Shown here piece after piece: positions 21,201-63,960 of a stretch of 64,000 bases of DNA (the stretch's first letter is position 1; each line of letters opens with the position of its first letter). Under the pieces are notes generated by a model that had not been told where the DNA came from, ran no database searches, and saw nothing but the letters and a program-made list of their open reading frames with translations. A program made the translations under genes and the position numbers. The stretch is taken from NCBI GenBank assembly GCA_944472135.2, contig OX235262.1, positions 165,477,509 to 165,541,508 on the forward strand, given 5' to 3'. The stretch comes from Trichobilharzia regenti (Eukaryota > Platyhelminthes > Trematoda > Strigeidida > Schistosomatidae).

Positions 21201-24200
21201 CTTAAGAGGGGCTACATTAAGCGTCATGTACGGATTACTTACTTCTAGAGTGAACATTTGAGTGACAGATCAGGAACTATGAGCGTGGATCAGTTGCCGC
21301 ATGTTCATGGAAATCAGCTTCAGCTCACAGAAACCAAGCTATTTCACTATCTGTCCTAATATGAAAGTATTTCTGGAAAACGTCTCTGCCTAGTATCAAT
21401 TATTGTTAATACAACTTAACAAGTTGTGTATATTATGAGGTAATGATATTTTTCTATGATGAAGACAGATGTAATTATCTACTGAATTTTCAACATTCAG
21501 TAGTGAATCATGTTTAGGATTTTTTAAACTTATTCGGCTGAAATACCACATACTTATCAATCAACAGAAAAAGACTCAATATTCATGAGATTAGCAGTGT
21601 CTTCTATACTTCATTTTTCTTCATTTTCAATTTTAGATCAAGCTGATTTTTTAAATCCTGATTATTTACATCGTTATACACTAAAACGACTCTCTGTGAG
21701 ACGAAATTTGACGGGAATCAATATACCAAATCAAATGGCTTCAATCTTTCCATTTTTCTATCGTATTAACGAAGGCTTTCTGTTGAGTTTAAAAAGTGCA
21801 AGGGGATTAGTGGCAAATAGTAAGAAACATATTTACATAACTTTTTTCCAACTATTTTTAGCATTATTTCTTAAGCTTTGAGAATTATTTAAAGTGAACT
21901 ATGTTTTTGAATGTGTTCCAACGATTCTGGTGCATAGTTTAGCCTGTAAATTTCAATCTTCAAGAGTTAGCGTGTAGGGATTTGATTCTTATCAAGTTTG
22001 CTCACGGATTGATGTCGGTTGAAGAACCACTGAAAACCAGCCGGAAGTACTGGACAGCTGTTTCGTCCTAATCCGGGAATCATCATCAGTATTTACACAC
22101 TAGATTTTGAGCCGAGGACCTCCTGGTAACAAGGTAAGCTTGCAGACCATTCAGTCGATAGGACCAAACTCAACGGCCCTTGAATTCTAACTCCTACCAA
22201 ACGTGATTTTAGGGCGAATTGCACACTCCCGAAGGAGTGTATGACTTAACCCCTTACAGTGAAACATCAAGTTGTATGTCAGGTGGATACTGCATCTTTG
22301 TGTGCTTATGAACATGAATGACTGTACTCATATGCATATAGTACCAATTGGCCAAATCACTTCATATGATGGTTACGTCATACTACGACTTACTTAGTTC
22401 TTAGGGTCAACGTATACATCAGAGACTCTTTTCAAAACAGTGAAAGTACAAAGTGCTATTTTAAAAGTGAAGAAGTATTTAGTTACTTCTTTGAATGAGC
22501 ATATGTTACTGTCGTTCTACAGAAAAAAATAGCTTTATAACATCTCTATACATTACAATAACTCTATTAAAGGTGTATGCACATATCTCAGTTAACGTAG
22601 AAGTTTTATAAGCCTAGTAAAAGTGAGAAACATTGCTTCAAAGGTGCTTATTTATGTGTAGAGGTTTCTATGAGGCGGAAGATAGCATTCTATGTGTTTC
22701 TAGTGCATATTATATTAGTCTAAACTTGCGTCAGTGGCACAGTGGTAGAAGGCTCGTCGACCATGCATGTGGCCAGGTGCTCAATCCTCGGCCGACTCAC
22801 TCCTCCACCTCGCTAAGCCACTAATAAGACTGGTAAAGAGGGGGAAGCTGGGTATGCGGCTAGCAACCCCATTCTGTAAAAATAAACACCACTGCTACCG
22901 AAACTTCAAGTCTCTAGCTTGAAGCCTTATTTTTCACTGGGAACATAAAGGAATAAAAAAACTTCGGAAATTTTTTTGATATAATACCAAGAATAACATT
23001 TTCGAAATGCTCAAAACCGGTAAACAAAGCCTCCTTCAGTCTAGTTAGGAGAAACGCTATAGATCGAAATCTAGAGTTTAGAGAAGTAAGCTGACAAGTG
23101 ACCAGCAGAGGTGGGATAAAGAAAAATAAACAGACTTAGATTATAATTAATACCAGAACCAGTGTTTTACAAGGACGAATGGTGTGTGTAGGAATTGTCA
23201 AAAGGTACTGATGATAGCTAGGTTGTTTCGACACAGACACAGGCATACAATGATGGACGAACTTGTAAGAGTAGTACTGACTTAAGGTAGACCTCAAAAA
23301 TAAACGCTCTTACAAAACCTTCACCGTTTTACGCCCTTAGTGGTACTCCACCTAACGTGCAAATATTGACGAACGAAATCGGAGTAAGAAGGCTTGATAT
23401 GATAAGTGTGTCTAGACAGAGTTATATTTTGTACAAATGAGATATGAAACTTGATAAATAAGGATTTTCTACAAATTATCCGGTGCTTTGCTTGGCGTCA
23501 AGCTCGGAGAGTGTACTGAATGAAAGCACAACAGGAGAGAAAACCAGATGTGTCCAGCAGAGTTAAAACTCAAAAGATGCAGAAGTGCCAAACAAGTGGG
23601 TGAGTCAGTTCAAACAAAAGTTCAAGGGTTCAATGTGCCCTACAAACTGACTCAATTAACCTTATCATCATACTGAATTACAATTTTTTAATCATAATGA
23701 CTATGATGATGGAGATTAGATAACTGGGGGGGGGGTAAACTTTCCCCTACTTTGAGTGAACTTTTAGCATACAAATCACTGTCTTGACAGCAAAATACAG
23801 AACGGGCTTCTTTGTTATCTAGCTTACATATATCTTTATGAAAATAAAACCGTACTCATTCTATAGTACTATCTAGAACAGAAGGTGTGGAATGGTCGGT
23901 ACTACTAAATTAGTCGAACTCCTCATGAAATCGCACTTTTCCACCATATTAAATAGCACGTGTAATTAATACCGACATCCTAGGCATCCTCATCCGGATA
24001 ATTATCATCTCATTTCGATCTAAAAATATTTACAATCACTTCTAATCTTTTATATATTTCCAAATATCTGTAAGTTCATCAAGTCGATTCTGATAATGAC
24101 ATGTTTTCTTATTTTATTTAGGAGGTGACTTTATTTTTGCCCTAGCTAAAGTCATACGTGGTTCTGAGACTAATTCACTACCTGTGAATAAATTCTATGG

Positions 24201-30200: not shown

Positions 30201-33200
30201 TCATTACTCAAAAACTGAAAGACCAAGATACAAAGGACATCTTCACTGCAAGCATCAGGGACAAAGCCGAGACACAAATCAACACCAGCGAAGAGGTCGG
30301 TGTCGAAAAGCGCTGGAACAACTTGAAAACGGTGTGGAGTCCATGCAAGTTCTAGGCAGAAAGAAGAGGCAGGACAAACAATGGCTCACTATGGACACTT
30401 GCAGACTAATAGAAGACAGAAGGATGGTTACACAAAAGATTATCCAGTGCATCGATGAGCAACATAAACAACAGTTGAATGCAAGCTACTAAACACTGAA
30501 CAAAAGAGTAAAGAAAAGTGCCAGGGAAGAAAAAAGAAAATATTATGAAGCCATGGTGAGTGAAGCAGAACAATCCGCAGTGCAGGCAAAGGAGACCTCA
30601 CCACAATCTACCGAACAACTAGGCACCTATCGGGCAAAGGTTCGACACAGATTAAGCCAGTAATGGATGACAATAGAAAGTCAATCACCAAAGAAGTGGA
30701 GTAAGGAAAACCCTGGGCTGAACACTTCAAAAGACTTCTAAATCGACCGCCACCTACAACGCGCTCAACAATATCAACAACGGAAGCAAAACTACCAGTG
30801 AACATCAACCCCTTGACGAGAACAGAAGTCCTGAATGCAATCAAGATGCTAAAAGCTCTAAAAGTAGCAGGACCAGATGGAATCCCAGCAGAAGCTCTAA
30901 AAATGGACCCAGAGACAACAGCGGACTTGATGACACCATTGCTGGAGAAGATGTGGAAGGAGGGCAAAGTATCTAAGGATTGGAAGAAAGGATACTTATT
31001 CAAACTACCAAAGAAAGGAGACTTAAGTCAATGCAAAAACTGGCGCGGAATTATGCTCTTGTCCATCCCAAGCAAAATACAAAGCCGCATCACCCTGGAG
31101 AGAATCAAACAAGCCCTAGATGAAAAACTTCGTCCGGAACAGGCCGAATTCAGGAGAAACAAATCATGTATTGATCAAATCGCCACACTACGGATCATCA
31201 TTGAACAAAGCTTGGAATGGCAGTCAGTCACCTCTCTATCTCAACTTCATCGACTTTGAAAAGGCCTTCGACAGCGTCGATCAAGAGGTGATTTGAAAAC
31301 TACTTCGCTACTACGGGGTTCCATCGACAATTATACATCTCATGCAACAGTCGTAAAACAATGCTGCATGCATTCCAAGTAATCCACAACGGGAAACTTA
31401 CGGAAGTCTTCGAAGTGAGGACGGGAGTGAAGCAAGGCTGTCTATTTTCGCCAATGATTCTCCTGATTGCAGTAGATTGGATAATGCAACAGAAAACGGG
31501 CGATGAGGAAGGAGGCATGAAATGGACTTGGAGGATCTGGACCTCGCCGATGATATATGTCTAATTTCCCACAAACTGTAAGATATCCAAGTGAAAAGCA
31601 ACAAGCTGACAGAAGAAGCATCAAAGATAAGACTCCAAGTTAACATAGATAACACAGAGGTGATGAAGATTCCTGGTCAACATCAACAGCAATACCAACA
31701 ACAACAGACAACAATCAGCATAAATGGGAGGTACCTGAAAGAAACAACCTCCTTTACTTACCCATCTGAGAAGCATCGTTTCAACTACAGACAGACAGAA
31801 CTGACGAGGATATCAATGCAAGGATCGGAAAAGCAAGACAAGCTTTCATTACTCTCATCAAGTCTGTGTGGAGGTCAACAGCACTCAGCATGACAATGAA
31901 AATAAGAATTGGATTTTCAACTCCAATGTGAAGTCAGTGCGATTCACTATACGGATCAGAGACTTGGCCAGCGCGTCATAAAGAGCATCTCCAACAAACT
32001 TCAGACATTCATACTGAGTTGTCTTCGCTCAATACTCAAGATCAGATGACCAGTCAGAAAAGATTAGCAACAGGGATCTCTAGTAATGTGCGAACCAACC
32101 AGTGACCGATTATGCAACAAATAAGCAGAAAGAAATGGAGATGGATTGGCCATACTCTGAGGAAACCATCAAGTGACATCACTAGAAAAAGTTTTGAGTG
32201 GAACCCGAAAGGGAAGCGGCGAGTTTTTCATCGGTGCGATGGTGACTTGGAGGAGGTCATGTGAAGAGGAGAGGAAAGCGTGTAGGGAGACTTGGAGCGG
32301 GTTGAAAAAGTTGGCAGAAAGCAGAAGGCAATGGAGACGTGCGGCTGAAGCTCTATGTTCCTATAGGAATCAAAAGAAATAATAATATAATAATAATTGC
32401 ATTAAAATACAGTTTTCATATACAGTAACAAATAAAGTGAGGAGCAATCAATTTGAGTCCTCGATAAACCCAGCAAACCAAGCAAATTTTTACAAACTGT
32501 TTATTTAATGGTTTTTTATCATAGTTCAGCAGAGAAATGGAACCACTTGCTGAAGGTTCATCGTTTTCAAAACAATCTCCTTTTATTTCAAAAAAACTGC
32601 TGAATATATCTATACTAAAAAGTGATGAGTATTCGTATTAGATAATCACAGCTCTCAGTGTTATTGTTTCTTTATCCTTTTTAGTGTAGTAAGGCTATTC
32701 AACAAGTTGTCGAGTTATGAGAATTGTAGAATCTTAAAACAATTTAAGTCATGAATAGGAATCTTTTCATCATTTTTACTAAATTTCCGTTTGGAGAACA
32801 TAATTCCTTCTACTCCAGATGTGAAAGTTAAACTGTGAAAACCTAAATTCATACCACTTGACACACTTTTCTGAACGATTAAGTTGAAAATGCTAAATAG
32901 CACTTATTTCAAGTCGGACCACTGACTGACATCGCTCAGGGAAACACTGAGAACCAGGGAGTATCAGAGAGCTGTTTCGTCTTAGTTTGAAACTCATCAT
33001 CATAACGCAACCACTGGGATTCGAACCCAGGACCTCACAGTTACAAGGCATGCTCGTAGACTACTGACCAACTGGGACTCGACTCCATGATACACGAATT
33101 CTAATCCCAGTGGGTGCGTGCTAGCTATGCGTCTCAACCTGGGGAGGAACAGCTGTCCAGTACTCCCTGATGGTTTTCAATAGTTCTCTAACTGATATCA

Positions 33201-36200
33201 ATCTGTTGTCAAACTGGAAACAAATCAAATCCTTACAAAATAACCCTTGAAAATGCTGTTTGTTTTTATTATTCATCTAATTACTGTTCAGATATTGTTG
33301 ACAAAGAACAGTTTTCCTACAATTATTATGCAATTTTTTATGCACAATATCTTTCTAAAACTAGCATTTCTTAATTTTAGGGGATTTCTGAGGAATGGAA
33401 CTCATGAACTATGTGTACTGAAACCACCAATTCGTTCACGCACATTGAGTAAAATCCAGAATGATGATGGAAAAGCTGCAGCGCTATGGAGGACGGATAG
33501 TCTTTTAGTAAGTTTTCTACCTAATTCATGTCTAAATCTCAGAGCTATATATATATATATATATATATGGGTACGCATCTTTACTTGTAAATCAACTGTG
33601 AGTTTTTGGAATTAACGTTTCCGTCTATTGGTTATTTTTGAATTGTTCTGACAATATAGAGGCTAGGCTGACGAAATATAGACGATTTTTTCAATGTGAG
33701 ATTTTCAGTTATTATGTATCGTTCATAAAGTGTTAGTTAATCTCACATCATGTCAAGTTTAGTTCATCACTGTATCTAAATGAAATTTCAGATTATTCAA
33801 TACTTACTACCATGTAAGATTCATCAAAGTAATACATCACTTCAGATTTAAACCTGAAATACTGAAAACCATTGAATGAGCTAATTATCACTGCTGCATT
33901 CGCCTAAGGACCAGTGGTAGTTGTGAAATGGTGTGCACCTCTGATTCCCTATGGAACATAAGGATTCACGATCAAATTTTCATCATTGGATTTCGTTATG
34001 TGTGTTCGTGTTTGTCTGCTTCCACAATTTCCCATAGGTCTTCGCTTTCTGCCTCATTGCAACCTCGGAACCCTGAATGATCACTCTCAATTCGGGTTAC
34101 ATCCGTAAACATCAGTCGAATCTTTAGGCAAAGCAATAAGAAGACGTAATTTGTCTGAATCGTGTAATGTATTAACGCAACACATTTCGAACAATCTGAT
34201 CACACACCGACTTGTCATAGGAATATACATATGAAATTAATAAAGAGTTAAGAGGTGAGAAAATAAATTTAGGACGACTTAAAAAGACATATTGAGGGAA
34301 AAACTAGCAACGAAGATGACTAAACCAAATAAGAGGGGTAATAGTACATCTACCCTGATTTCAAAAGAAAGTTTACCAAGGGCCACTTAGTGTGATGATG
34401 AATTGTTTTTGAATGCATAAAGGAGATTTAAACTTTCTAATTACTAGGGCTTCCACAAACTTTAGGATACGCCCCAAACACGTTCTGTAGACAGGTTTAA
34501 ATGACGTGTAAACATTAATTTTATGTCCTGTCTCTATAATATATATTTCACCATTAATGAGTTCTGGGAATTTCATTTGCTTCTGAAGGCATTCAGAAAT
34601 ATACTTTTAAGTTATTACTTGCAGAGATCGATGAGTCCTCCGCATGTTTGTGTGGAACACGCACATTCAAATTAGTAAATACAGTGGGATGTGAAATAAT
34701 TTTTCGCATGTTCGAAGGCTTAGATGGATATATTGGCTTCGCATTCCCTATTATTATCTTAGCTGCATAAAAGGTATTTTTAACCACAGCTTTCGACCTT
34801 TCTTTGCAAACTTTGTTTTGATACCAGCCAGGGTAGATATCCTATTACCCCTCTTATTTGGTTTAGTCATCTTCATTGTTAGTTTGACCCTCACTATGTC
34901 CTTTTAACTCGACCCAAAATTTATTTTCACACCTCTTAACTCTTTATTAGTTTCACATACCTGTGTGTGATTAGATTTTTTGAAATGTGTTGCGCAAATA
35001 CTACATTAAACAATTCAGATAAATTACTTCTTCTTATTGCGTTGTCTAAATTCTTAAAGGGAGCTAATTGTTTTAAATCCATCTTTTGCCGAATTCCTTT
35101 AATTCTGCAAAGTGGACAATCTACTTATATATGTAACAATAGAAGAAAAGGGCCAGGCAACAGATCGTTTTATTACGAAAACCAACAGGTATTTATATAA
35201 GTTTCACATACATTATTATAGCCTAGTCAAACGCAGGCTTCTGATTGGTTGTTTTTGAGTTCCTCGGAAAGTGGAGCCATCTATCTGCGAATCATATTTG
35301 CCCACGTTTAAGTTTGCTGTGAATGGTTGTTGAAACGGCCTTGTTCATATTTTCTCACGGCCCATGTTAGTGACCTAGACACTGACGTAAATTAATGTCA
35401 ACCAGTTGGCTAGCAGGCTGCTCTCACCATATATATATATATTATATGTACATAAGTAAATTGCAGATTATATAGTACTGTCATACTCACTGTACACTTT
35501 TGTATGGTTTCACCACTAATACGTCAAATTCCAGAAAAAAAATTCTGGGAAATCGTTCCTTAGATTTATTAGAGTCTTTAACATATGCAACTACTGTCTG
35601 GTAATATTCTTGACATTTCGATAAATTCGTCATTAGGTTCTACATTCATATGACAATAATAATCCAAGTATTATTGTTTTATATTATACTGAATCGATAG
35701 CGTCGACAGATTACATTTCAAAAGCATCGATAAGAGATAATATACATTAACTCCCATGAATTTCAACTTCCACCAATCCGTGATTTCAGCATGACTACAA
35801 GCCAGTATCAGCCGCACTTATTTTTCCCACTTCTGACCAGGTGGAACCCACTAGTCATGACTTCTTACTAGAAGTATGGGTGACGCTGTACTGTAGCTAC
35901 TAACTAGGGAGCGTCAAATTAATTTCGTGGATGAATGGTATACGATCTTGCCTTGTAACCGTAGGATCCTGGGTTCAAACCATGGTCAGTGCGTACTACT
36001 GAAGAATCCCAAACTAAGCTGTGCAGTACCCCCTGATGGTTTTCAATTTTAAGACTCTTCGCTGAATGACTGAATACTCAAGAGAAGATTAGTGTTTAGT
36101 CACTCACGAAGGATGAACAAAATTATGAAATGCATACTTGTTCTTAGCGTGGGATTCGCAACTCGTGTTTTCACTACAGCTATTCTACTGTGCTCACACA

Positions 36201-36853: not shown

Positions 36854-39800
36854 GATAAACACTATGCGTCGGTGGCATAGCGGTTAGGAGGCTCGCCAAC
36901 CATGCACACTATCCGGGGTTCCATCCCCGACCGACGACTCACTCCTTTACCTTGCTAAGCCAGAAATAATGCTGGTAAAGTGGAAAGGTTGGGCATGAGG
37001 TTAGCAACCCCATCCTGTAAAAATAAACACTGCTACAGAAACTTCAAGCCTCCAGCTTGAAGCCCTATGTTCCACTGGGAGCGTGAAATAAAAAAAAAGA
37101 CAAATACTATTCTAAACAATAATGCTCATCAACAATGGAAACTCCCGTCATTACGTATTCAGATGAAAGAGAGATGAAAATTTCCAGTTACCAGGGCAAG
37201 GAAAGACTGATAACTGTTACTTTCTGAACGCACAAATCAAGTTTCAGGCGCATGATGGAAATGACTTCAGCGAACTTGAGGAGAATTGAGCTCATTTGCC
37301 TATTGATAACTTTGAACGGTTTCACAACGTTTACCTTATGACCCCTGTCAAGGAGATGCCTAACGATGGCACTGTTTAAATCATTTGTTCCCTTTAGACA
37401 TAGGCTTTTTGGTGCATGTTCAGAAAATCGTAGATATGCCCTTCTTTCTGTCTTTCCAATGTAACTGCTCCCGCAGATACATGTAAATTTGCACATACAG
37501 TTGGAGTTAGCATCAGGGTACCACTTTATTCTGCAAAAACTGTAGTTCTTGCTTGAGTGGATACGTTTTACTGCTATTCTGTAATGTTTCATGGGATATT
37601 TCTCAAAGAATTTGAGGACGTAATGTGCACTATAAAACTATGAGATGCTTTCTAATACAAAACACTTTTCATAAAGAGGCCTTCGGCTAGCTGTGTTCCT
37701 GAAAATCAATCTCTAAGGCCTCTGCAGTACAAAGTAGACAGAAACTCACTGTTTTCAGGAGGCTTCTTTTTTAACTTTGTAGATAACTTTGAATAAATTC
37801 TCCTTGCGTAGTGAGAGACCAGTGTTGAATATATGTTTAGTAAAGATAAACTGGAAGAAGGGAAAGGTGCCTATTGACTGGAGGAAAGGTTACCTCGTGA
37901 AACTACCAAAGAAGGGCGACTTAGGACTCTGCAAGAACTGGCGAGGAATCATGCTCCTATCGACGCCAAGTAAAATCCTGAGTCGCATCATCCTGGAGAG
38001 ATTAAAGGACGCACTGGAGACAGAACTCCGACCACAACAAGCTGGATTCAGGAAAGGCGAATCATGTACTGACCGAATTGCAACTCTACGCATCATCATC
38101 ACAGAACAAAGCATGGAATGGCAATCAAACCTCCACCTCAACTTTATAGACTTTGAGAAGGCCTTCGACAGCGTTGATCGTGAAGTAATTTGGAAAGTAC
38201 TCGAGTACTATGGCGTACCCCAAATATTAATCAACCTTATTCAACAGCTGTATGACAATGGCACCTGCCAAGTGATCCACAACGGAAGACTCAGCGAGGC
38301 GTTTGGAGTAAACACAGAAGTCAAACAAGGGTGCTTACTATCACCAACGATGATATTCCTAATTGTGGTGGACTGGATTATACGTCAGACTGTGGGAAAC
38401 GAGAAGACAGGAATATCCTGGACCGACGTGAAGAACCTAGAAGACCTGGATTTCGCGGATGACTTATGTTTGATGTCACACAAAATCGAAGACTTACAAA
38501 CGAAAACCGACAAACTGGTCGAAGAAGCAGCAAAGACAGGACTCCAGGTAAACATAGACAAGACGGAGGTTATGAAAATAACCAACCAGCAACAACAACA
38601 GCAGCAACATCCGACGTCAATCACCATCAACGGGAGGGATTTGAAAGAGGCTACTTCATTCATTTATCTAGGGAGCATTGTCTCAACTACAGGAGGATTT
38701 TTTTTTTATTACAGCTTGATTCCACACCGCATTTTCGGTACAAGTATGGAATTTCAGCATGTGATATCGGTAGCCCAAATTTTGCAGGCCGACCATAGAT
38801 ATCAGGTATGAGTCGGCGTGGGCTCGAACCCCGGACCATGTGCATGGTCGACGAGAGTCCTAACCACTGTGCCACCGACGCACAGACGAGAACATCAAAT
38901 CGAGAATCGGGAAGGCAGGCGAGAAACACATTCATCAGCCTGAGATCAATCTGGAAATCTTCGTCACTCAGCCACCATCAACAACAAAATTCGGATTTTC
39001 AATACAAACGTCAAGTCAGTCAGTTCTTCTATACGGATCAGAAACTTGACGGGCGGGTCACAAAGAATATTTCCAAAAGGCTGCAGACCTTTATTAACAA
39101 CTGTCTTCGCTCAATACTGAAGATCAGATGGCCGGAAAGAATCACCAACAAGGAATTATGGGAACAAACAAAGCAAGAACCAATCGCCCAACAAATATGC
39201 AGGAGAAAGTGGAGATGGATCGGACACTCGCTGAGGAGACCGCTGGGTGACATCGCGCGCCAAGCCCTCGAGTGCAACCCGAAAGGGAAGCGGCGTGTGG
39301 GACGTCCAAGGGTGACATGGAGGAGATTGTGTGAAGAGGAGTTGAAAGAATATGGATTAACATGGATGCAGGCGAAAAGTATAGCAGAAGACAGAAGAAA
39401 ATGGAGACGTGCAGTTGAAGCCCTATGTTCCACTAGGAACCCGAGGGAGCAATAGTAATATAAATAATAATAATAAAGATAAACTATCGCATCTGAACAC
39501 TTCTGTGCGCACCTATCAATTCACTTGCTCATGTGGAGTGAGATTTGCAAGTGGTTCAACTCACATTTTACCTAAAAAGAGTCAAAGAACATTATGCTGC
39601 TTGACTTTGAAAGGGTAACAGTGGGTCAATAAGCAGTGCTACTATAGCTGTGTTTACAAAATAAACAAATCTACCGAGAATATTGATATGGAAGACAAAC
39701 AACTTTAGAGGAAAGTAATATATATGGTTAAATTAGAGGAAATTTCTTAAAAATAAACTTCAGTGGAATATATTTTATGCTTCTACAGAATATCTTCATA

Positions 39801-42800
39801 TGAACTTGAACTTGCATTTAAATAACACAACTAGGATTTAACAGTAAATTCAGACATAAGCGAGGATGGTTACGTAATCATATTGTAACAACAGAAGACA
39901 AGGGCTAGGCAACAGATCCTTTATTAGGGAAATCAACACATATTTATACATTTTCATGTACATTATGATAGATTATTGTTAGCAGAAAAATACAGTCTTC
40001 TGATTGGTTGTTTCTCACTGAAAGTTAACCTTGCATCTCTTTGTGGCTGTTTCTTGAATGTCAGAACATCTAAATGCTAACTGTATCCGCCCACGCAAAA
40101 TCTGCTGTGGTTGGCTGTTGAATCCGTCTTTGTTTATATTTCTCTCACGACCAACATTGGGGACATAAACAATGACGTAAAATACTGTCTAGGCTAGTAG
40201 CCAGCTCTCATGACAACATGAAGGAATTTTCCAACGAACAATCGAAAAGGTCAGTAGTAAAATAAAGATGTAAATAAAGCATGAAAATAGATGGTTGCAA
40301 ATGCAAAGTTACATCACAAAATATCAAATGCATTTTAGATGAATTATATTCAAGACACCAGATCAACATATCAGAATCTCTGAAGGTGGTAAGCAGACAA
40401 AATACTTCAAGACCACTTCACATTACTAAAGCTGTCATCACCGGAAGAGTGAAGTCAAAATTGGGTGTTGGAAAAGAAATTGTCACTAACTTATTACTAC
40501 CTTCCGAATTTGACCACGAACTGACATCAGTTAGAGAACCATTAAAAACCAGGGAATACTGAACAGCTGTTTCATCCTAGTTTGGGACTGATCGGCAGTA
40601 CGTACCCACTGGGTTACAGCATTGATCAAACAATGTAAAAGTCATTATCTTGTATCTTGACTATTATTATTATTCCCCTGGTTCCCAGTGGAACATAGGG
40701 ATTCAACAGAACGTTCCAACTTTGTCCTATTGTCTACAGTCCTCTTCAACTGGCTCCTTGGATCGCCCATAAGCTCTCCCCTGTTCCTTCCCACACGATC
40801 ACCTCCATATCACCCTCGAACACGCACCCAACTCATCGTTTCTCATTCAGGTTCCACTGTAACAACAGAAGACAAGGACCAGGCAACCGATCGTTTATTA
40901 AGGAAATCAGCACGTATTTGTATGTATTTCATGTACATTATTATAGCTTATTCAAGCAGACAAACACAGTCTTCTGATTGGTTGTTTCTTGCTCAAGCTT
41001 ACTCTGTACTGCTTGTGACTGATTTTTCAGAAAGTTAAGCCATATATCTGCGGATCGTATTTGCCCACGTTAAGTCTGCTAAGACTGGTTGTTGAATCAG
41101 TCTTGTTCATATTTTCTCATTGCCAATATTAGTAACCTAGACATTGACGCAAATTAATCTCTACCATTTAGCCAGCAGCCTACTCTCACCACCACGTGAG
41201 AGCTGCTCTGGCGTGCGGTGTCACTCAACGGCCTTCTCAGTGTGTGTTCGATCCATCTCTATTTTATCCTACATATTTCTTGGTCGGTAGGCTCTTGATC
41301 GGTTTGTTACCAGAGTTTCTTGTTGCTAATTCCATTCAACTGGCCATCTGATCTTTAATATTGAGAAAACAAAGGCAGATGTTGATAAAAGTCTCCAGCG
41401 AACTGTTTGCAAAACTGTTTGGGATGCCAAAGACAAGATTCCGGTCCTTGTAGAAGAAGTGAATGAATAACACTGGTGTTGAAAATTCGAATTTTCTTCA
41501 TTATGCTGAGTGCAGTGGATTTTCACAATGGCTTCAGGGTGATGAATATTTGTCTTGCTTTCCTGATTCTGGTTTTGACATTCTCATCCGCGCCACTGAC
41601 TTTAGTTGAAATGTTGATGCCTAGATAGGCGGAGGAATCGACTTCATTCAGGTTTTCCCCATTAATGGTGACTGGCGTTGTTTTTATTGTTGTTTTTGGT
41701 CAGTTATCTTCATTATCTCTGTCTTCTCTGTATTCTCTTGAAGTTGTGTGTTCGTCGCCTGACTCTTCTGCAAACCTGTCGGTTTCCCGCTGTAAATCTT
41801 CGAATTTTTGTAACAATAAAAGTAAATTATCCGCGAAGTTCAGATCTCCTCTAGTCTCCTTATCGATCCAATGTATTCCTGTCTTTTTGCTCCCAATGCA
41901 CAAGCAGTGGAATAATCATTTTCACCACGATTAGGAATATCACTGGTGATAGTATGCAGCCTTGTCTTACCCTTGTTTTTACTGCAAAGGCTTTGCTGTG
42001 TTTCATATTACGGATTACTCGACATTTATCAATAACATAGAGATTCTGAACGAGGTTGGTAGACATTTGTGCCACTTTGGTTACTTTTTTCTAATTATAG
42101 CTATAATCTTCACCAAATGAGAACTTTTGCGGACCTAAGTTATTCCTAAAATAATATGTATTATTATTATATCCTTTAATTCCTATAGGAACATAGGGCT
42201 TCAGCTGCGCACCTCCATTGCCTTCGGTCCTCTGCCAAGGTTTTCACCCCGCTCCAAGTCTGCTTACATGCTTTCCTCTCTTCTTCACATGACCTCCTCC
42301 AAGTCACCATCGCACTGATGAACAACTCGCCGCTTCCCTTTCGGGTTCCACTCAAAAATTTGTCTAGTGGTGTCACTTTATGGTTTTCTCAGAGTATGGC
42401 CAATCCATCTCCATTTCTTTCTGCTTATTTGTTGCATAATCGGTCACTGGTTGGTTCGCACATTACTAGAGATCCCTGTTGCTTATCTTTTCTGGCCGGC
42501 CATCTGATCTTGAGTATTAAGCGAAGACAACTGTTAATGAAGGTCTGAAGTTTGTTGGAGATGCTCTTTATGACGCGGTGGCCAAGTCTCTGATCCGTAT
42601 AGCGAGTAGCACTGACTGACTTCACATTGGAGTTGAAAATCCAATTCTTATTTTCATTCTCATGCTGAGTGCTGTTGACCTCCACACAGACTTGATGAGA
42701 GTAATGAAAGCTTGTCTTGCTTTTCCGATCCTTGCACTGATATCCTCGTCAGTTCTGTCTGTCTGTAGTTGAAACGATGCTTCCCAGATGGGTAAGTAAA

Positions 42801-44970: not shown

Positions 44971-45953
44971 TTAAACTTACGAATTGAACATATCAATAGA
45001 CAATTCGGTGTCCTATTGTTATCTTCGGGTCGAAGTATAAATACACATTTTTATGTTTAAAATGTAATAACTGCCTTACTGTTGCTTTGACTACATATGG
45101 TTGTGATTTAAGCGTTGTAAAGGGAGAAGACATCAAACTTGGTGAGAGAATCTGATATGCTCATACAGGGAAATTAAGCATACCAGTATATTAAAACCGT
45201 CATTTGCACAGATCTTCGATGTTTTACCACTTCTAACCTTCATATTATGTCTTTTTGTCTTCTTTTTGTAGTATTCATGTTTCGACACAATACTGCTTCG
45301 TTTCCCCCTTTGTACGTCAAGTATATCTCTCCTTTATTCGATATTTTTATGTCAATGGACGTCTCTTTATATACTGCTGATAAATCTTGTCAGTAGCACA
45401 CCATAAAGTATCGATAAAAAGGCAAGATATAAAGTCTGCTCTACAGATAAAAAGGCCATTTAAAGGGACTCTTATTTGTCAGACACTTTCGCTTCAGACA
45501 TTTACGGTAGTTATTTAAACGAATGATTAATAGGATTTCGAAAGATTGTATGATTTCAGGTTCCCATTGAAAAAATTAAGCTGTGTAATGATACTGGGTT
45601 AGCGGTAATCTCTTGCATATTACAAATATTTGATAAGACTAGTTAATTCGTCTATATTTTAACTCTATATTATCAAATAATAGTGACTGAACATTGCAAG
45701 GTTGAAAGTCAGTTGACCGTTATCACCTTATTACTGTAGTATGTTTAATGCGAAACGGATTATAGGAGGGATATGGAATTGGTTAATACAAAGAGAAATA
45801 TACAGATTTATATAGAATCTAAAATAAAGGTGTGTCGCTCCAAGTTACCATACTTAACAACCATAAATAATAAATAGGGAAGTCAAGAGAAATAAAGTAT
45901 TGTTACAGTTCACAGATTCGAAACTGTGAGAAGGCAAAATTAATAAAGCATTT
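44971..45953. other. Downstream flank of gene 1, nothing recognised
   Basis: Expected to hold the 3' UTR of gene 1. No repeat family or gene seen. Confidence 0.4.
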
Positions 45954-46259
45954 CATGGAGGATTTAATCATGAGCTGACATCAGTTAGAGAACCACTGGA
46001 AAACCTGGGAGTACTGGACAGCTGTTTCGTTTGGCGCTATGTCGTGAATTGGCAGAAGTTAGAATTCAAGAACCATTGGATCGGGTCCCAGTGGCTCAAT
46101 GGTCTACGAGCTCGCCTTGTAACCAGAAGGTCCTGGGTTCGAATCCCGGTGGGTGGGTACTGCTGAGGAGTCCCAAACTAGGACGAAACGGCTGTCCAGT
46201 ACTCCCAGGTTTTCCAGTGGTTCTCTAACTGATGTCAGCTCATGATTAAATCCTCCATG
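45954..46259 (+). mobile_element. FB1 foldback element, intact
   Basis: 77-bp terminal inverted repeats, 45954-46030 and 46183-46259, differing at one base, around a 152-bp centre. The centre holds a Pol III-type A box (tggctcaatgg, 46092-46102) and B box (gggttcgaatccc, 46135-46147). A complete hammerhead spans 46157-46202 and runs into the right arm. No clear target duplication and no coding capacity. Other, older copies lie at 0.9, 22, 32.9, 35.9, 40.5, 56.6, 60.2 and 63.6 kb. Confidence 0.85.
46157..46202 (+). ncRNA. Type I hammerhead ribozyme (complete core)
   Basis: Stem I GTACTG (46157-46162) with CAGTAC (46197-46202), extendable by flanking GGG and CCC across a bulge; core CTGAGGA (46163-46169); stem II GTCC (46170-46173) with GGAC (46181-46184), loop CAAACTA; GAAA (46185-46188); minimal stem III (A46188-T46195, C46189-G46194) with loop GGCT; triplet GTC (46194-46196), cleavage expected after 46196. 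The stem II sequence is very close to what I recall of SM-alpha hammerheads. Confidence 0.88.
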
Positions 46260-47200
46260 CAATCAAACAAAATCCCTACAAAAACCAATACTTGATAATA
46301 AAGCATTTGTTTGAAGATGCTAAAATGAGGACCATTTCGCCTAAAGAATGACCAACAGCTGATTTTAAACACGTCGGGAATTTCGATTAGGCTTAGACCA
46401 ACAGCAAACGAATTAGCCTAATGACATATTGGATATTTAATTGCAGTTTTGACCAGTAACTAGGAATAAACAGTAAAGGTGAAGACTATCCGGCAACCTG
46501 TTCGAATCAATATTCCAGTTTTGCAATGATTGATGAGACCCAAACTAATTGGGAGTGATGATTGATGCAGTTTTCATTCCTGAGATTTGTGTTTTCCCAG
46601 GGTTGCATACAAGACTTTCTAATGAGTTTTATCAGTCACGAAGACCAAGTTAAAATCATATTCTGCTGAGCCTGCTTAATATCTCGTAGCTGAAAGCCAC
46701 AATATTGGGTGTCATCTTTTCCCTGTCTACCTATAAATTTGTTCCCATTTCAGTTTGATTTCCAGCTATCACTGCTATTTCAGAGAGGTAACTATGTACG
46801 CATGATACATATCCCAGCCTTAGTGAATAATTTTAGTTTCATTAAGACTGAGCAGCGTTACGGAAATATTAATAATCGAAGCCAAGTAACGTCTTTCTAT
46901 TGTGTGTTTCAAGTGACTATGCTCCGCGGTCATGAAGTAAGACACAAAGGACTGCTACAAAAGTACATACATAGAACTACAGTAACTGAGACACACTTAT
47001 GTGTCCAGACTTTTGATGAAAATATATGGTTGGCATTTAGAAGCAGATAACTAAGTGCATATTTGAGTATGAAAACGAAATATATTTCGAGGAGGCTTGA
47101 TATTACATCCGTTCTTATGCAGAAAGAGTATTGAAGGACAGCCTGCAGTCAAAGTCTAGTAAATGCTTGTGGACTTGTTCAGTATCATCTCAACTGATCG
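46260..47200. other. Intergenic; possible decayed RTE-b 5' part
   Basis: Precedes the RTE-b remnant in the same orientation and could be its endonuclease region, but I found no motif I can defend. The frame 46709-47050 matches nothing known to me. Confidence 0.35.
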
Positions 47201-52740: not shown

Positions 52741-54270
52741 TACATAATAAAACTAAATTCTAATCTCTTGTTGTTTCCAAAGACCTCAGTGTAAGAGAGG
52801 AGAAACTAATGACGGACTCCTCAAAAAACTGAACGTAAAAGAAGTATTATCATCAGCTATGTGTGAGTCTATCAAACCAACGGGCACCAACACTGTGTCT
52901 TTACGGTCTACCCAAATTTCGCAAACTGGATCTTCCTCTTCGCCCAGTTCCAAACATGTATAACTCTCCAGCAAAGTGATTAGTGAAGATTCTGGGACCT
53001 TCGCACGAAGAAATTGTATGGCATACAATTAGTTATTTCTCCGACTTCATTTCCAAAATATCCGAAACTAATGTGAGGTATAAACGCATGTTATCTATGG
53101 ATGTATCATCTCTATTCACTAACATACCGCTTATGGAAACAGTAGATTACATTTGTCAAGAAATCACCAAAAGGCAATTGGAATTAGGAATTCCCTTGTG
53201 TAGCCTCAAAGAATTACTTCTCAAATGTACAATGAATGTTCACTTTGTCTTCAATAATTCCTACTACCGACAGGTAGATGGAATAGCTATAAGTTCACCA
53301 TTAGGCCTTATGTTACCTAACTTTTTTCTCGCAAAACTTGAAAACGGGAAAGTGAAAGACATCATCAAGGAGTTTGATATGCATTACCGATATGTCGATG
53401 ATACATGTATCTTAGCTGATGAGAATGTTAACATAGACGAATTGTTGCTGAAGTTCAACAGCGTTCACCCTTGCTCACCCTTACTTGTGAAGAGCATCAG
53501 GAGAATAAACTACATTTTCTGGATGTCTTGCTAAGTAGGCGAGAAGATGGGTCACTTGGAGAAGCGTGTATAGAAAAAGCACATTCACAGGACAATACAC
53601 ACACTTCCTTAGTTACGTGCCCATTAAATATAAAAGAAATGTTGTAAAATCTCTCGCGAGCAGAGCAAGAAAGATACATACAGATGACCTCTCACAAAAG
53701 GAATTTGAATATATTCACGATTCCTTGACGGAGATGGGGTATCCGAGTAGTTTAATAAAGAAACATATGAAAACATCGGAGAAAAAACCTGAAACTCTGA
53801 CTGCAAGTAAAAAGCCTCTATTTATTAAGTTGCAATTTAATGGTGACTAATCAAGTGAGACTTTATTCCAAAGACTTTCAAGGAGTATACGAAGAACACT
53901 TTACGCAGCACACCTATGTTTGTCATTCTCTAGTCGACGAATGATTGGGACGCAAACAAAGGATAAGCTAGATGGCTTTGCCACATCTATGTGCATTTAT
54001 CAATTCAGCTGCACCTGTGGTGACAGTTATGTTGGGCGTAATACTAGACAGCCTAGACAACGTGTTAGTGAACATCTCCCATCGTGATTTGGCAAAGGAC
54101 AGGCAAAAGCAATCTGTATCTCAATTTTGTCACATTTAATTGATAGGGGTCATGTAGTCGAGAAAACGAGAGCTTTCAAAGTAGTTCGTCGTATCCCACT
54201 GAATCTCTCTAATAGACTTCGTATTCGCCTACTGCACACAGCTGATTATTTATTATTACTGTGATTACTA

Positions 54271-55223: not shown

Positions 55224-58200
55224 CTAAAACAAAAAGAGTAGAGATTGAAATGGGTGTTGTGATTATTTGAGATTTCCTTGGATTCTTTTAATTTAGAAAG
55301 TCTCTTGAAAAGCAGTTACCTCTGGAAACTTTACGTCAAATATATTGATTTCTTCCAACAGAAGAATGCCATTATTTCTATTTAGACTAGGGAAATTATT
55401 CATGGAATTGATTTGTAGACACTAAGTGATAAGATCAGGTTGATAAGTCTTCAATGAGAAACTATGCAACTCAGTTTGAAACGACCGTTTAGCCTGAAAC
55501 GAGAGTTTACACCATAGCGGCTTATTACGCTAAAAGTGATGCGGAGTTCCATGACGCAAGTTAAGTCATGAAAATACGGTTGACTTATAAAGGGTCAAAA
55601 GTCTTACAAACAGATATTGTCAAGTATGGCAGGTTGGATCTTAATTTACTAAAACGTTTTGTAGTAATTACGAAGGAGGCAGTTGGCTTTAGTCGTACCG
55701 CTGTTGTACATTGACAACATATTGCATGGAATATCTGGAACCCTAGGTAAGAGTCTTAACAAAGCAGGAATTAGAGTGGCATTTAAACCTACATACTCAT
55801 TCAGGGACAAGCTTTGTAGGTTAAAGGACCCTATTGACCCAATCAGGCGAACTGATATGATATACAAAATACCTTGTAATGATGGTGAGGTCCACCACAT
55901 AAGTGAAACCGGTAAATAGGGGGTATTCACATCATCAGAATGTAAGAATTTAGGTAATGTTAAAGTGACTGATCCCGTGAAGATAAGTAATTTAGATTGC
56001 ACTGCACACATTAAGAGAGTTACAATTCTACAAGAGTCATCGAATCTATACCCAACATATAGAATAGCGATAACTCATCACTAATACCAAAGATATGAAA
56101 AATATTACTAGCGATCAAGTAGAGAGACAAGAAATAGTGGAATTATTTAAATGAAGTCGGGAAGTTTTGTAAGTACCTTGATATGATTATGAGTAATAAA
56201 TTGTCCTCAAAATGTCACCAGTAAATAATACTGTATAACACTGTAAGACTTTGTTAAATAAATTTACTCTATGGCGGAATTATACTCTCTCCCAGTGTGT
56301 CCAAGTTCAGTTCTTATATCTACGCCCTTTTAACTTTGAAGGATGTTAAACGTCATTGTCTTCTGCGCAATCTTGAAGGAAATTATAATATTCATTAAAT
56401 ACTGTATAAGGATAAAAAAAATTCTGTTGGACTAATATGAAGATCAGCTCTTCAACAACTGATATTCCACCTCCACGAGCTGTACCTTCGGCAGATGAAA
56501 GTCGAATGATGCAGGCAACGCCATTCTTAATAACTTAGTCACTTAGTGTACCTCAGATATATTTTTACAAAAAAGAAACAGGATTTTTTAGCCGAGGACA
56601 TTGGCTAGCGGTCGCACTATGTCACGAATTGGCAGAAGTTAGAATTTATGGGCTAGCCATTGTATCGGATCTCAGTGGCTGAATGGCCTACGAGCTCACT
56701 CGCCTTGTAACCAGAAGGTCCTGGATTCGGACCCTGGCAGTGGGTGTGTACTTATGAAGAGTCCCGAATTGGGACGAAACATCTGTCCAGTTTAAGCAAG
56801 CAGATACGTATATTCGGTAAATTCTCGTCAAGCCTTACAATTAAATAACAAAATATCAGTCACAGACATTTGAAACAACACCGACCAAATAGAATCAGGT
56901 AGAATTTAATTCGAATAATCATAACAATAAATTGTGAAACTAAGATTAAAATATCCAACTACACCACAGTACAAATAAAAATAATGTTTACAGCTATGCA
57001 GTGTCACCCAGATAACTATTTTATTCTGAAGTTGTGGGCTGTGCGAGGAAGAAGGATTGGACAAACTATCTCTGAGAGCGAAAATTAAGCGCTGGAAATT
57101 TTTAGGGCGACCCCCCACCCCCCCCACTCCCACCATCAGCTATGCTTAGCAGTCGAAGGCGTACAAACTTAGGGAATTGAAGTAGCACATTGCATAGAAT
57201 TGTAAAGGCTGAATATTCATTAATCTTATCATCCGTATCCACAAGGTGTACACCAATCTGGAACTCCTGACTGACTTTATGACTGCTGGCTTCACCTAAC
57301 CACGTTGGATAATGCTTTGTCAATGATTTTAGGGACTAGCATGACATTATACACTTACACTCAATATATGGAGATATTGATTCGCAGAAGGATGTTTAAA
57401 TAGCCAGTGGGAATCGACCTTTTAGGCTTCACAATAATACTAATTCACAATTTTTTTCACAGTAAAAATTAAACTCTAAGTCTTTAAACTACTAATTGTT
57501 ACAATCTCAGGCAATTTGTTAGATGAATAATAATCATAACAATGGTATGGTATAGGTAAATTTTGTTTATTGAACTTACAAAATAGATTAAGTACAACAA
57601 AATTTGAACCATATTTGTTTTCAGCTCGACAAGAGTAATTACCATAGTCACCCACTCGAACATTACGAATAAGCAGGGTAGAAAAGACATCAGTTATCTA
57701 AAATGAATAGAATTCCATGAGAAATTAGGTGAAAAAATATAGGTAACAATTTCTGATACACATCAATACTATATCAGTTCAAATTTAGTACATTCTATTT
57801 CATTTATGCCTGTAGAATATACTGGTATACTTCAAAATTAACTGATTGGTGCATATTTAGTCAATGATTATTCATATCTTAGAAAAACAACCAGTCCCAT
57901 CCATAACATCTACTTCGCGATCTGTGAAAGAATGCTCATCTGAGAAACATGTCGACCTCACAGTTTCATAGGGATTTCTGAAAAGAGAGCATATTAGCCA
58001 GTGTCTCATTATTACCTATTATTATTCCTTTTGGTTCCCAATGGAATATAGGGCTCCAACAGAACATCTCCACTTTGTCCTGTTACCCGCATTCCCTGTC
58101 CCCACGATTGACTATAGACTCTCATCTCCTCCTCCGCCTTCTCACACGATCTCTTCCATGTCACCTTCAAAAACAACCCTGACTAGCTGTTTCTCACTTG

Positions 58201-61200
58201 AGTTCCACTCGAGAGTATACCAGGCGTGCGATGTCACCCAACTGCCTCCTCAGTGTATGTGTGTCCACTCCATCTTCATTTTCTTCCGGATATTTATTGA
58301 ACATTAGGTTCTGAATCGGTTCGTTCATAAAGTTTCTTGTTGCTAATTCTTTCTGGCTGGCATTCTTTCCATCAGTTTGGATCCAGCAAAGGTGGTAGCT
58401 GTTGATAAAAGTCTGCAGTAAACTGCTGGAAATGCTTTTGGTGCCGCATGTGCGTAGTTTCTTATCCAGATAGAAAAAGTGAATTTACACTGGTGTTGGA
58501 AGCCTGAATCTCGATGCATATGCTGAGTGCATAAAATCTCTGCACCGATTCAGGAGTGGTGAATGTCTATTTCACCTCCCTCTTTCTGGTTTAGACATCT
58601 TCATCTGTGATGACGGTATTTGAAACGACTTGCCTGAATAAGTGAATGCAGTGACCTATTTCAAACTTATTCCGTTGACTGTGATTGATGCTGGTTGTTG
58701 TTGCTTTTGTTTGGTTATCTTCATCACTTCCATCGTCTCTACGTTCACTTGAAGTCCTGCCCTCGCTGACTGTCTCCTCCACAAGTTTGTTGGTTTTCAC
58801 TTTTACATCTTCGAATTATTGTGACACTATACATAAATCGTCCACGAAGTCCACATCTCCTGGATTCTTCGTAACTGTCTGACTTATTGCTGTCTTACCG
58901 CCAACCCCCCGCAAATAAAGTATGCTATATCATCCAGTCCACCATAACTAGAAATGTCATCGGTGGCAGTAGTCAGCCTTGTCTAACTCCTGGCTTCTCA
59001 TCAAAGGCTCTTTGCTGAGTGACCCTTTTAGGACCACCTAAGATACGGCATTTTCAAAAGCTGTTCAGTGAGGTTGATAAGGATTTGGGGCACCCCATAG
59101 TGTTGAAGTAGTTTCCAAATTATTACTTACTACACTTGGTAAACTATTCCTCCGCTAATGATAGATTCAGTATAATAATTATTTCTGACAACACAAAACA
59201 TCTAAGAACACTTAGTTAAATTTTTAATGATTACAGATGTTTTTCCGAGAAATGAGCAGAGGTAGTTTGAAATCGACTGGTGAACAATGGTAAACAAAAG
59301 ATAAACTACTTACTGTTATTAAGTAGTATAAAGTTATACACAAAGAAAGCCCAACAAAGGATGTAATAAAAGAATTATCATCAGAAGGTATGTACACAAT
59401 AGTCCTTCTAAAGAATAACAGTTACTTATGAATACTTCTCTCCATGTTCTTTAGAACATTCTGGAATTTATGAATATAGAGTCTGAATAAGTTCTTCCAA
59501 GGTATTATTTACCGATGTATGTTTTATTCTTAATCTTTACGACGAAATTAATTAACGATACTTTCATAATCCAATCTCTGAATAAATGTTTATAAGATCT
59601 ACACGCAAACTTTTGTAAAACACTTGACTGACTGACGTACAATGAATTTTAAGAAGTAACACAGGACTTACATTTGTACCAGCTGCTCCGTAACTATGAG
59701 CTTTTTCAAGTTCATAACGATTGTTATCATATAAGGGAATATTATTTGTTATAGGATCATAAATTCCAGTATACCATAGTAAATCGGGATCAGGATAGCC
59801 ATTTACAATACACTCTAGCGTCATATCATAATTTCCATCTGGTGCCTTAGGAGAAAAAAGACATTATTCAATGCATATGCTGTTTCTTTGTGAGATTTAT
59901 GAAGAATAGTCAAAACGTTCCCTTTTTTTCTCAAAAATCATGTTTACAGAGGAAGGGACCTAAATAGTCCTAAAACGCCCGATGATTCGAATCCCTTGGG
60001 TACATGTAAGAGAGTAGTCCACTGAATACTGAATCCTGACGAAAATGAATATATTAGGCATGCAATGTGACTTCGAAACTAGACGATGTGACACTACTTT
60101 GCATTTTAGTACTGTATGCGTGAGGTTGACTAATAGGAAACTCCGAAACAAATTCTATAATCTGAAGTAACCATTTAGAGTCGATTGCTTATAATGGCAT
60201 TCAAACAGATATGACACTTTGAATCGGCTGGAATTTTAGGGAAAAAATGAAACCAAGGCGTACTGGGTGGCTGTTTCGTCCGAGTTCAGGACACTTCAAT
60301 AGTACGCGCCCTTGACCCAACTGAGTATCAAACTCAAGACCTCCAAGATACGAGGTGAGCTCGTTGACCATTTAGCCACTGGGACGGACTCCAATAGCCC
60401 ATAAATCCTAACTTTTGTTAGTTCGCGATTTAAGCGCGACTACCACACAGTGTCATAGGTGAGCATTTGTTCTCACACTCCACCTGGGTGTCTAACTGAT
60501 ATCAATCCGTGATCAAACTTGAAAGGAAACAGTTTGTTGAATAATGCTAGGGAAACTCTAGATCCATTTAATTCTTATAACTTTCTTTCACACAGAAGTG
60601 AAGGTTTAACCCAATAAAAATGAATGAATGATCGGCTGAAGTATATTTTTCAAATAAAAGGGATCGAGGAGGTAGATTACTACGAAGCTAATGTTTCATT
60701 TCAGTGAAAATGTATCCTACCGAAAAACTATTGGTGAAAAAGTTTAAATAAGATAAATAAAAATGAGTAGCTTGAAGTGAACTGTAAATTTATGTAGCCT
60801 AAATCAAATGGCAGAAACGCAAGGCGATTGATCCACAGATCAGCGTGTAGTTCCTGCCTATTCACTGGTATAGCCTTTTATTTCGTGAAATTTCTGTCAC
60901 AGTTCAAACTAATTTATGATCCTAGATAAGCTTTCTCCAATTTATATTATGATGACCTCACTGGTAAACAGTTTAAAGTCCACATCTAGTGTAGCGTGTC
61001 TAATGCTATCTTTCGTGTAGAGTGAATACTGCCAGTCGAGTTTGCAATGTGGCCACTGTGCTAGGTGGCTCGCCATCACAATGCGCATTTATGTGATGAT
61101 ATCAGATGGTTGGAGGCAATCCTCAGGAAGCCTTGAACCTAGATTTCGTGCTAGTTGACACTCATCAGAATGGCGTATACGAAATCCTCATGGAACTGAT

Positions 61201-62379: not shown

Positions 62380-63435
62380 CATGAAGAAAATGAAAGAAAA
62401 ATTCAGTGAAAAAATTTTCTTTATCGACGAAATCATCTTCAGAGTCGGCTGTACAGTCGTATTCAAACTTACCAAAAAAATATATAGTGGTATATTATTG
62501 AGTAGTAGAAGGTGACATAATTGATATAATTACTCAGAAGTGGCTTTAGAAGTTAAAACTAAAAGTTGTAAATTGCGTGATACTCAACGGCACAAAGACA
62601 GAAATTTGATAAGGTTAAAATTGCTATTGAGTGAGAATAAAGGTGGTAGGTGAGTGTCCATTCAACAAGTGTGAAGAGGGTGTGAAAATGTACAAAAGGA
62701 ACATATGAAAGTGATAATAGTGAATTAATTATTAAAGCAAAAGTAAACTAAAAGTAAAATTGAAAATAAAGAAAAAATCAAAATTTTTTACTGAGAACGA
62801 CTAATGAAGAGGTTAAGACCAAGGTAGAATAAGGGACTGGACAAAATTTTTCTGTTTACGGAGTTCAGGGTTGTATTGACGAACCGCCAGCGTCTCCGCC
62901 ATACACAAAAGCCGAAACCTGACGCCCTTTGTACCATTTGGCTTCACCTTGTAGATGATTTTGAAAGACGACTGTGGTGGAGCTACGTGGCTTGACTTCG
63001 CCAAGTGCTTGAGAACTGAGCTTGTAATTGGCTTGCATTGTCCCTTTGCTAACCATACCGGATAATGTTTACAGATGCGTTTGGAAAGTGTACGATCGCT
63101 TTGTGCGGCCAATATAACTAACTCCACACGAGCAGGTGAATTGATAAACACAAATTGAGGTGGCCTAAAGCAAAACTCACTCAATAGCAATTTTAACCTT
63201 ATCAAATTTCTGTCTTTGTGTCGTTGAGTATCACGCAATTTACAACTTTTAGTTTTAACTTCTAAAGTCACTTTTGAGTAATTATATTAATTATGTCACC
63301 CCCTATTACTCAATAATAGGCCACTACATATATTTTTTTTGGTAAGTATGAATACGACTGTACAGCCGACTCTGAAGATGATTTCGTCGATAAAGAAAAT
63401 TTTCTTCACTGAATTTTTCTTTTATTCTCTTCATG
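62380..63435 (-). mobile_element. 5'-truncated Penelope-like element with 260-bp inverted arms
   Basis: Arms 62380-62635 and 63176-63435 are inverted copies of ~90% or better by eye. Between them the minus strand encodes ICVYQFTCSCGVSYIGRTKR (~63160-63100), then after a frameshift DRTLSKRICKHYPVWLAKGQ and FRLLCMAETLAVRQYNPEL: the GIY-YIG nuclease and C-terminus of a PLE. Lies upstream of the first visible exon of gene 2. Confidence 0.8.
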
Positions 63436-63634
63436 ACTCAATGGATGTTTTCGGTATTTTGACAGTCAGTAATTTTTACTAAGTTTAGATTTCTGATATT
63501 TCACTTTGGTGAATTTCACTTCACATTTTACACTTGAGATCAAGTAATTCGCTAAAACTTAAACTCAAGAATTAGAGAAACACAATAAATCATATCACCA
63601 AGTGTTGCTTTGCATGGATTTGATTGGCTACAGG

Positions 63635-63960
63635 TTTGATCATGAGTTGACACTAACTAGAGAACCACTGGAAAACCTGGGAGTACTGGACAGCGGGGGC
63701 CACCAAGTCTGATACGAGGACAGTTACTAGCCTATGATATTGGCTGGTGGTTGCGTTATATACTTCAGGAATTGACGGGGCATAGGGTCAGGTCCCGCTA
63801 GCTAAATGCTTTCAAATCCCACCTAGTAATGGAAAAGTCATGGTTTCGAACTCCAGTGGGTCCGCACTGCTGGGGAGTCCTAAACTAGGATGGGGTGGTT
63901 GTCCAAGACACCCAGATTTCCCAATGGTTCTAACTGATACCAACTAGTGTTTAGACCGGT
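63635..63960 (+). repeat. FB1 foldback element, partly decayed
   Basis: Left arm gatcatgagttgacactaac, gagaaccactggaaaacctg, ggagtactggacagc; right arm cccagatttcccaatggttc. The hammerhead region at ~63866-63910 keeps tcctaaactagga stem II, but the core is ctgggga and gaaac is ggggt. Confidence 0.7.

Follow-up and report, generated by a model that had tools for sequence, protein, structure and literature searches.

How a hammerhead ribozyme came to lie within a long inverted repeat is the question raised by the segment at 45954-46295 of the window, by which we mean the whole 64,000-nt stretch of Trichobilharzia regenti DNA that was analysed. The segment belongs to an abundant SINE-like family, labelled F2 here, with a tRNA-like head judged from box A-like and box B-like stretches. 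On the best reading its inverted repeat arose when two cDNA copies of one element were joined head to head as they were inserted. We consider it likely that the segment is a hammerhead SINE inserted by the two-site, two-strand, target-primed reverse transcription that is typical of Penelope-type elements (PLEs).

A complete type I hammerhead had been described at 46157-46202 (plus strand) from the letters alone, and a covariance search, the verification suggested at that time, agrees with the description: Rfam model RF00163 matches this region from end to end with 52.5 bits against a gathering score of 34. The corresponding E-value of 8.6e-11, for 64 kb searched with 4227 families, is far beyond chance. 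The conserved core and the three stems of RF00163, open at stem I, can all be read directly. Stem I is GTACTG/CAGTAC, the core comprises CTGAGGA (46163-46169) and GAAA (46185-46188), stem II is GTCC/GGAC with a loop of 7 nt, and stem III is made up of an A-U and a C-G pair that close a GGCT loop. The 6-bp stem I, the 4-bp stem II and the minimal stem III of the preliminary description are all present, and cleavage is predicted where it had been placed, after 46196 (GTC^CAGT). The hammerhead probably cuts transcripts of the element. Other matches above the Rfam cut-off in the window are found at 19612-19656 (45.3 bits) and 40601-40556 (34.7 bits), and two further F2 hammerheads fall below it (27.6 and 27.3 bits). 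The locus had been taken for the intact member of an abundant family; the family is indeed abundant, but this is not its sole good copy, since the hammerheads of two F2 loci outside the window, L084 and L086, score 53.3 and 53.5 bits. The ribozyme at 46157-46202 is ordinary for its group, and the new part is the architecture of the insertion.

The arms of the inverted repeat occupy 45950-46030 and 46183-46263 (81 nt, 98% complementary). A 13-nt direct repeat, TAATAAAGCATTT, is present at 45941-45953 and again at 46296-46308 (both plus strand), where it encloses the whole composite as a target site duplication. Because four bases of the left arm (45950-45953) belong to this direct repeat, the short arm ends at either 46259 or 46263 and the tail measures 32-36 nt. 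The short arm (45954-46030, minus strand) is an antisense copy of approximately 46183-46259, as mapped on the F2 reference, and its outer end lies at a site that we call S. The long arm (46031-46295, plus strand) is a sense copy with 89% identity to the reference copy L031 over 46034-46293, and its outer end lies at a second site, T. There is one unit per arm. The tail (46260-46295, plus strand) extends from S (46259, or 46263 with the ambiguous bases) to T (46295) and is found on one end alone. Mapped on L031, the composite ends at S (46259-46263) and T (46293-46295), and each of these outer ends is a 3' end of the element. The term foldback element used for this locus calls for correction: with a direct repeat outside it and a one-sided tail, the inverted repeat is better not read as a terminal repeat of the element.

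The tRNA-like head of the long arm contains stretches at 46092-46102 and 46136-46146 (both plus strand) that are box A-like and box B-like by comparison with the consensus; with these boxes, the order of a tRNA-like head followed by a type I hammerhead is that of the SM-alpha family. No tRNA was called by ARAGORN at any place in the window. No ORF of 110 aa overlaps 45941-46308, and F2 is not itself a PLE because it has no ORF with reverse transcriptase and GIY-YIG domains. Two features of PLE-type insertion are present at 45941-46308, namely head-to-head copies with a tail at one end and a target site duplication, here of 13 nt, around the whole composite.

At least eight decayed relatives had been noticed in the window, and blastn likewise identifies eight other F2 places. 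Decayed members lie at 963-1167 (plus strand), 22015-22200 (minus strand, hammerhead 27.6 bits), 35927-36016 (plus strand), 56614-56791 (plus strand, hammerhead 27.3 bits) and 60250-60428 (minus strand), and the member at 40508-40613 (minus strand) has the 34.7-bit hammerhead, with changes in the core. Two other decayed members have inverted arms: that at 32926-33252 (minus strand) has a tail on one end and an 11-nt direct repeat, and that at 63600-63938 (plus strand; blastn match 63619-63938) has a left-hand tail and no exact repeat of 8 nt. By self-comparison, 3 of the 9 F2 places in the window have an inverted partner. Forty-five F2 pieces, most of them single and decayed, were compared with L031 as reference; after the extension of some loci they yielded ten composites with readable ends. 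Eight of these pair S with T (45954-46295, L079, L083/L071, L084, L086, L037 and two copies in the window, one near 33 kb and one near 63.6 kb, whose S ends are decayed and were judged by eye), and two, L080 and L023, pair S with S. Exact direct repeats measure 13 nt at 45954-46295, 13 nt in L084, 12 nt in L086, 11 nt in the 33-kb copy and 8 nt in L083/L071; in 5 of the 10 composites the exact repeat is shorter than 8 nt. Three of 110 mismatched F2 flank pairs reach 8 nt in the control. At L071 (281-5166, taken with L083) an F2 copy is interrupted by a PLE composite that has a direct repeat of 12 nt.

The assembly surveyed comprises 954 Mb in 548 contigs. A genome search with RF00163 gave 304034 first-look candidates, of which 74 were scored, all above the cut-off, and the scored loci that were fetched belong mostly to a second hammerhead family, F1. 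Its hammerhead core is CTGACGAGTCCCAAATAGGACGAAA and, with 69.1-69.5 bits, is nearer to the Rfam type I consensus than that of F2. The F1 unit measures 329 nt, and tandem units also occur. The 48 F1 loci consist of 8 that were returned and 40 regions picked from the 74 listed matches, including all five visible close minus/plus pairs; two of them, L014 and L015, are one duplicated insertion. A minus copy abuts a plus copy in 39 of the 48 loci, by an automatic rule that accepts minus-then-plus neighbours alone, and 9 loci have no composite by this rule. The preliminary description had treated the inverted repeats as a contrast to SM-alpha; because F1 shares the layout, it does not set F2 apart from SM-alpha-like elements in this genome.

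In the F1 composites the outer ends lie in two narrow intervals, S at u ~207-224 and T at the end of the unit. Thirty-seven of the 39 are S/T, one is S/S (L008) and one is u199/T; T is the left-hand end in 22 composites and the right-hand end in 16. Direct repeats were counted in 37 hand-listed composites, 25 of which have an exact repeat of at least 8 nt, most often of 13 nt, and 12 of which have no exact repeat of 8 nt; among mismatched flank pairs the proportion is 1.2%. The inner junction is not constant among copies, and the longer arm may be either of the two. The inner ends of the T arms form a cluster at u193-205, a short way past S (12 of 38; 11 of 37 once the duplicate is dropped; P = 4e-5 after correction for 329 positions). 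The tail is about 115 nt long. Since 10 of 77 arms exceed one unit, some F1 templates must have been multimeric or circular.

Three ORFs of the window, at 37188-37637 (minus strand), 62813-63286 (minus strand) and 52980-53534 (plus strand), are presumably PLE fragments, as judged from their motifs and, for the first two, from matches to repeated genomic families; Pfam gave no match in any of the three. The family of 37188-37637 has open frames of up to 819 aa among 150 scored matches, is the only one of the two in which many 815-aa frames were seen, and is arranged in tandem in places with a period of 2842. A hammerhead-like minimal core, CTGATGAGAAGCCAACGAAA, lies just before the PLE ATG (L069, minus strand, near 931 and 3773); Rfam did not report this core in L069. 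From 30 loci (L049-L078), several of them chosen because their matches lay in inverted pairs, we took the ten head-to-head copies with both outer ends readable (L050, L056, L059, L070-L075 and L077, mapped on the tandem stretch L069). Excluded were L049, which is decayed, L055, which coincides with L073, and L060, one end of which lies outside; L054, which is not head to head, is part of the direct-repeat set. All ten are S/T composites, with one end at P3835-3850 and the other at P3868-3878, or at the equivalent positions one period earlier, and the tail between the end sites is about 27 nt. Direct repeats of 9-14 nt, with a mode of 12, are present in 9 of the 10, and 1 of 110 mismatched PLE flank pairs reaches 8 nt. 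The PLEs of this genome thus have the same layout as its hammerhead SINEs.

Some PLE loci show further peculiarities. About 900 unaligned bases separate the arms of L075. The inner junction of the head-to-head copy L070 (1355-1438) is a long palindrome with microRNA-like Rfam scores below the cut-off on both strands; sub-threshold matches to microRNA and tmRNA models were taken as chance or palindrome effects. In L078 (3421-3557) an older F1 tail and a young PLE copy meet head to head and overlap by 7 nt, the arrangement being either a mixed composite or a PLE beside an old F1. This locus was not used as evidence because no direct repeat encloses it and its F1 piece is older (86% against 96-100%).

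Neighbouring copies are strongly biased in orientation, with minus-then-plus to plus-then-minus ratios of 45:4 for F1, 10:0 for F2 and 13:1 for PLEs, in loci that were partly picked and some of which overlap. No head-to-head neighbour was found in small samples of ten pieces each of a tRNA-derived SINE without a hammerhead (the control, at 1206-1387, plus strand, in the window) and of an RTE-like segment. A third tRNA-headed hammerhead family, present at 19500-19680 (plus strand) with the 45.3-bit RF00163 match, has one head-to-head pair in a small sample of 14 pieces. Nearby, at 19426-19482 (minus strand), a Twister-P1-like match of 35.1 bits (cut-off 67.2) immediately precedes an RTE-like ORF of the same strand and is possibly the 5'-end ribozyme of that retroelement.

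In the mechanism that we propose, a SINE-like element that is tRNA-headed, non-coding and equipped with a type I hammerhead would have been inserted once to give 45954-46295. The enzyme, supplied in trans, would be of the Penelope type, with a telomerase-like reverse transcriptase and a GIY-YIG nuclease, and would cleave the two target strands at positions some 13 nt from each other. The 3' ends released in this way would then prime cDNA synthesis at two fixed places inside the element RNA, S (~46259) for one strand and T (~46295) for the other. The two antisense cDNAs, presumably made on a single RNA from the tRNA-like promoter, would be joined at their far ends into a head-to-head foldback with a variable inner junction, and the product would have one S end, one T end with the tail, and a target site duplication. 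This two-site, two-strand scheme accounts for the head-to-head order, the fixed ends, the one-sided tail and the direct repeat that are seen. Synthesis of both cDNAs on one RNA would require two different starts, and it fits with the stop of the T arms near S. Both arms of 45954-46295 cross the cut site, so the inserted RNA had not been cut at the hammerhead; a cut template was also rejected for F1, where of 77 inner ends a single one comes within 2 nt of the cut, against 1.2 expected; placing the cut one base later leaves the count at 1.

Much of this scheme has a counterpart in studied PLEs. The purified lizard PLE of PMC11167929 cleaves the two target strands and extends each of them. Its reverse transcription begins at two neighbouring sites within the RNA, and the segment that separates them is the genomic tail; in vitro, hammerhead mutants are inserted as well as wild type. 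In that work the strands did not differ in start site, whereas here the two ends of one insertion nearly always differ. Rotifer Penelope elements have inverted pLTRs, a 31-bp tail on one of them and short target site duplications (PMC3846280, in part). Several observations count against the mechanism. F1 and F2 sequences have no match to the ends of the two sampled PLE groups (30 and 4 loci); the matches seen near PLEs were rejected as shared PLE ends, since they are F1, F2 or F3 copies. L008, L080 and L023 are S/S, and Pol III could terminate at the TTTT at 46210, ahead of both sites. The F1 and F2 composites with no exact repeat of 8 nt, the 9 F1 loci with no composite, the many single F2 pieces and the uniform start sites of the lizard enzyme also weigh against it. 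We consider the chances even that the hammerhead SINEs of this genome are, more generally, tRNA-headed parasites of the PLE machinery, with two enzyme units starting at two fixed sites on one RNA, one per strand.

The same head-to-head order would also be produced if a single minus-strand cDNA had folded back and copied itself into an inverted arm, and self-priming of this type is argued for rotifer Penelope in the part of the PMC3846280 Discussion that we cite. It also accords with the slightly closer similarity of the F1 arms within a composite (4.1% divergence) than between composites (5.9%; 23 composites), a modest difference. The outer end of a copied arm should, however, be arbitrary or reach the T end, and instead one S and one T are found in 37 of 39 F1, 8 of 10 F2 and 10 of 10 PLE composites; we regard self-copying as improbable.

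Still less credible is that the foldback is a fixed terminal repeat, copied from a parent that was already palindromic. Such inheritance would explain why several copies in the window and the genome have the layout in common, but the inner junctions differ among copies, the long arm may be either one, and the window holds copies with no detectable partner. Two separate insertions, or a later inverted duplication, could also have brought the copies together, given that the families are abundant and that nested insertions are known (the PLE inside the F2 copy of L071/L083); yet a single direct repeat encloses the whole composite at 45941-46308 and at many other loci, the orientation is strongly one-sided, and neither control family has such pairs in its ten pieces. 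We give this explanation the least weight of all, and retain PLE-type insertion of two cDNAs.

The foldback itself has predicted consequences for the ribozyme. A transcript of the whole composite has a predicted fold of -204.7 kcal/mol with no ribozyme pairing, so that in such a transcript the ribozyme would be expected to lie buried in the foldback. For 46031-46295 alone the predicted probability is about 0.67 for stem II and 0.09 for stem I; for 46085-46295 the values are 0.25 and at most 0.09, with tertiary contacts outside the model, and we count the latter against the mechanism. We take the foldback to be a by-product of insertion; it is a possible source of double-stranded RNA.

The SM-alpha and Sj-alpha elements of schistosomes are SINE-like, tRNA-derived, of high copy number and equipped with a type I hammerhead (passages of PMC2770079 and PMC8490949), and the elements described here share their SINE-like nature, tRNA-derived head, abundance and ribozyme type. 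The representative SMalpha measures 335 bp and the F1 unit 329 nt. The F2 hammerhead differs from that of SM-alpha in stem I and the stem III loop, as had been pointed out. The passages of these two papers contain no head-to-head S/T composites, and we do not claim that SM-alpha lacks them. Metazoan retrozymes are likewise non-coding, with a type I hammerhead and tandem copies, as in the F1 units, but 45954-46295 has one unit per arm and the copies here are mainly head-to-head composites with direct repeats; retrozymes also seem to be without promoters (PMC7761336, in part), in contrast to the tRNA-like head found here. With PLEs the elements share head-to-head copies, a tail at one end and direct repeats (passages of PMC11167929 and PMC3846280, and the PLEs of this genome), as well as a hammerhead close upstream of the sites where reverse transcription starts. 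Unlike PLEs, F1 and F2 encode no protein; the tail of F1, at about 115 nt, is a further difference, as is the lack of sequence shared with the sampled PLE ends.

PLEs have been suggested, on indirect grounds, as the movers of metazoan retrozymes (a passage in the Discussion of PMC7229834), and the enzyme that spreads animal hammerhead elements is stated to be unknown in section 9 of PMC7761336, as far as that passage goes. In the portions of the open-access literature consulted we found no paper linking hammerhead SINEs to PLE insertion footprints, and priority is not certain. The S and T ends, the one-sided tail and the direct repeats of 12-13 nt are common to the hammerhead SINEs and the PLEs of one genome. 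These insertion footprints can be read directly, so that the question of the mobilizing enzyme becomes testable. They also bear on the origin of head-to-head Penelope copies, which is left open in the cited part of PMC3846280. If the hammerhead SINEs of this genome are indeed parasites of the PLE machinery, the near-strict S/T rule and the stop of the T arms a short way past S would show that PLEs integrate by twin priming at fixed sites and not by self-priming, and the hammerhead would have its role before copying or after it, but not in its course.
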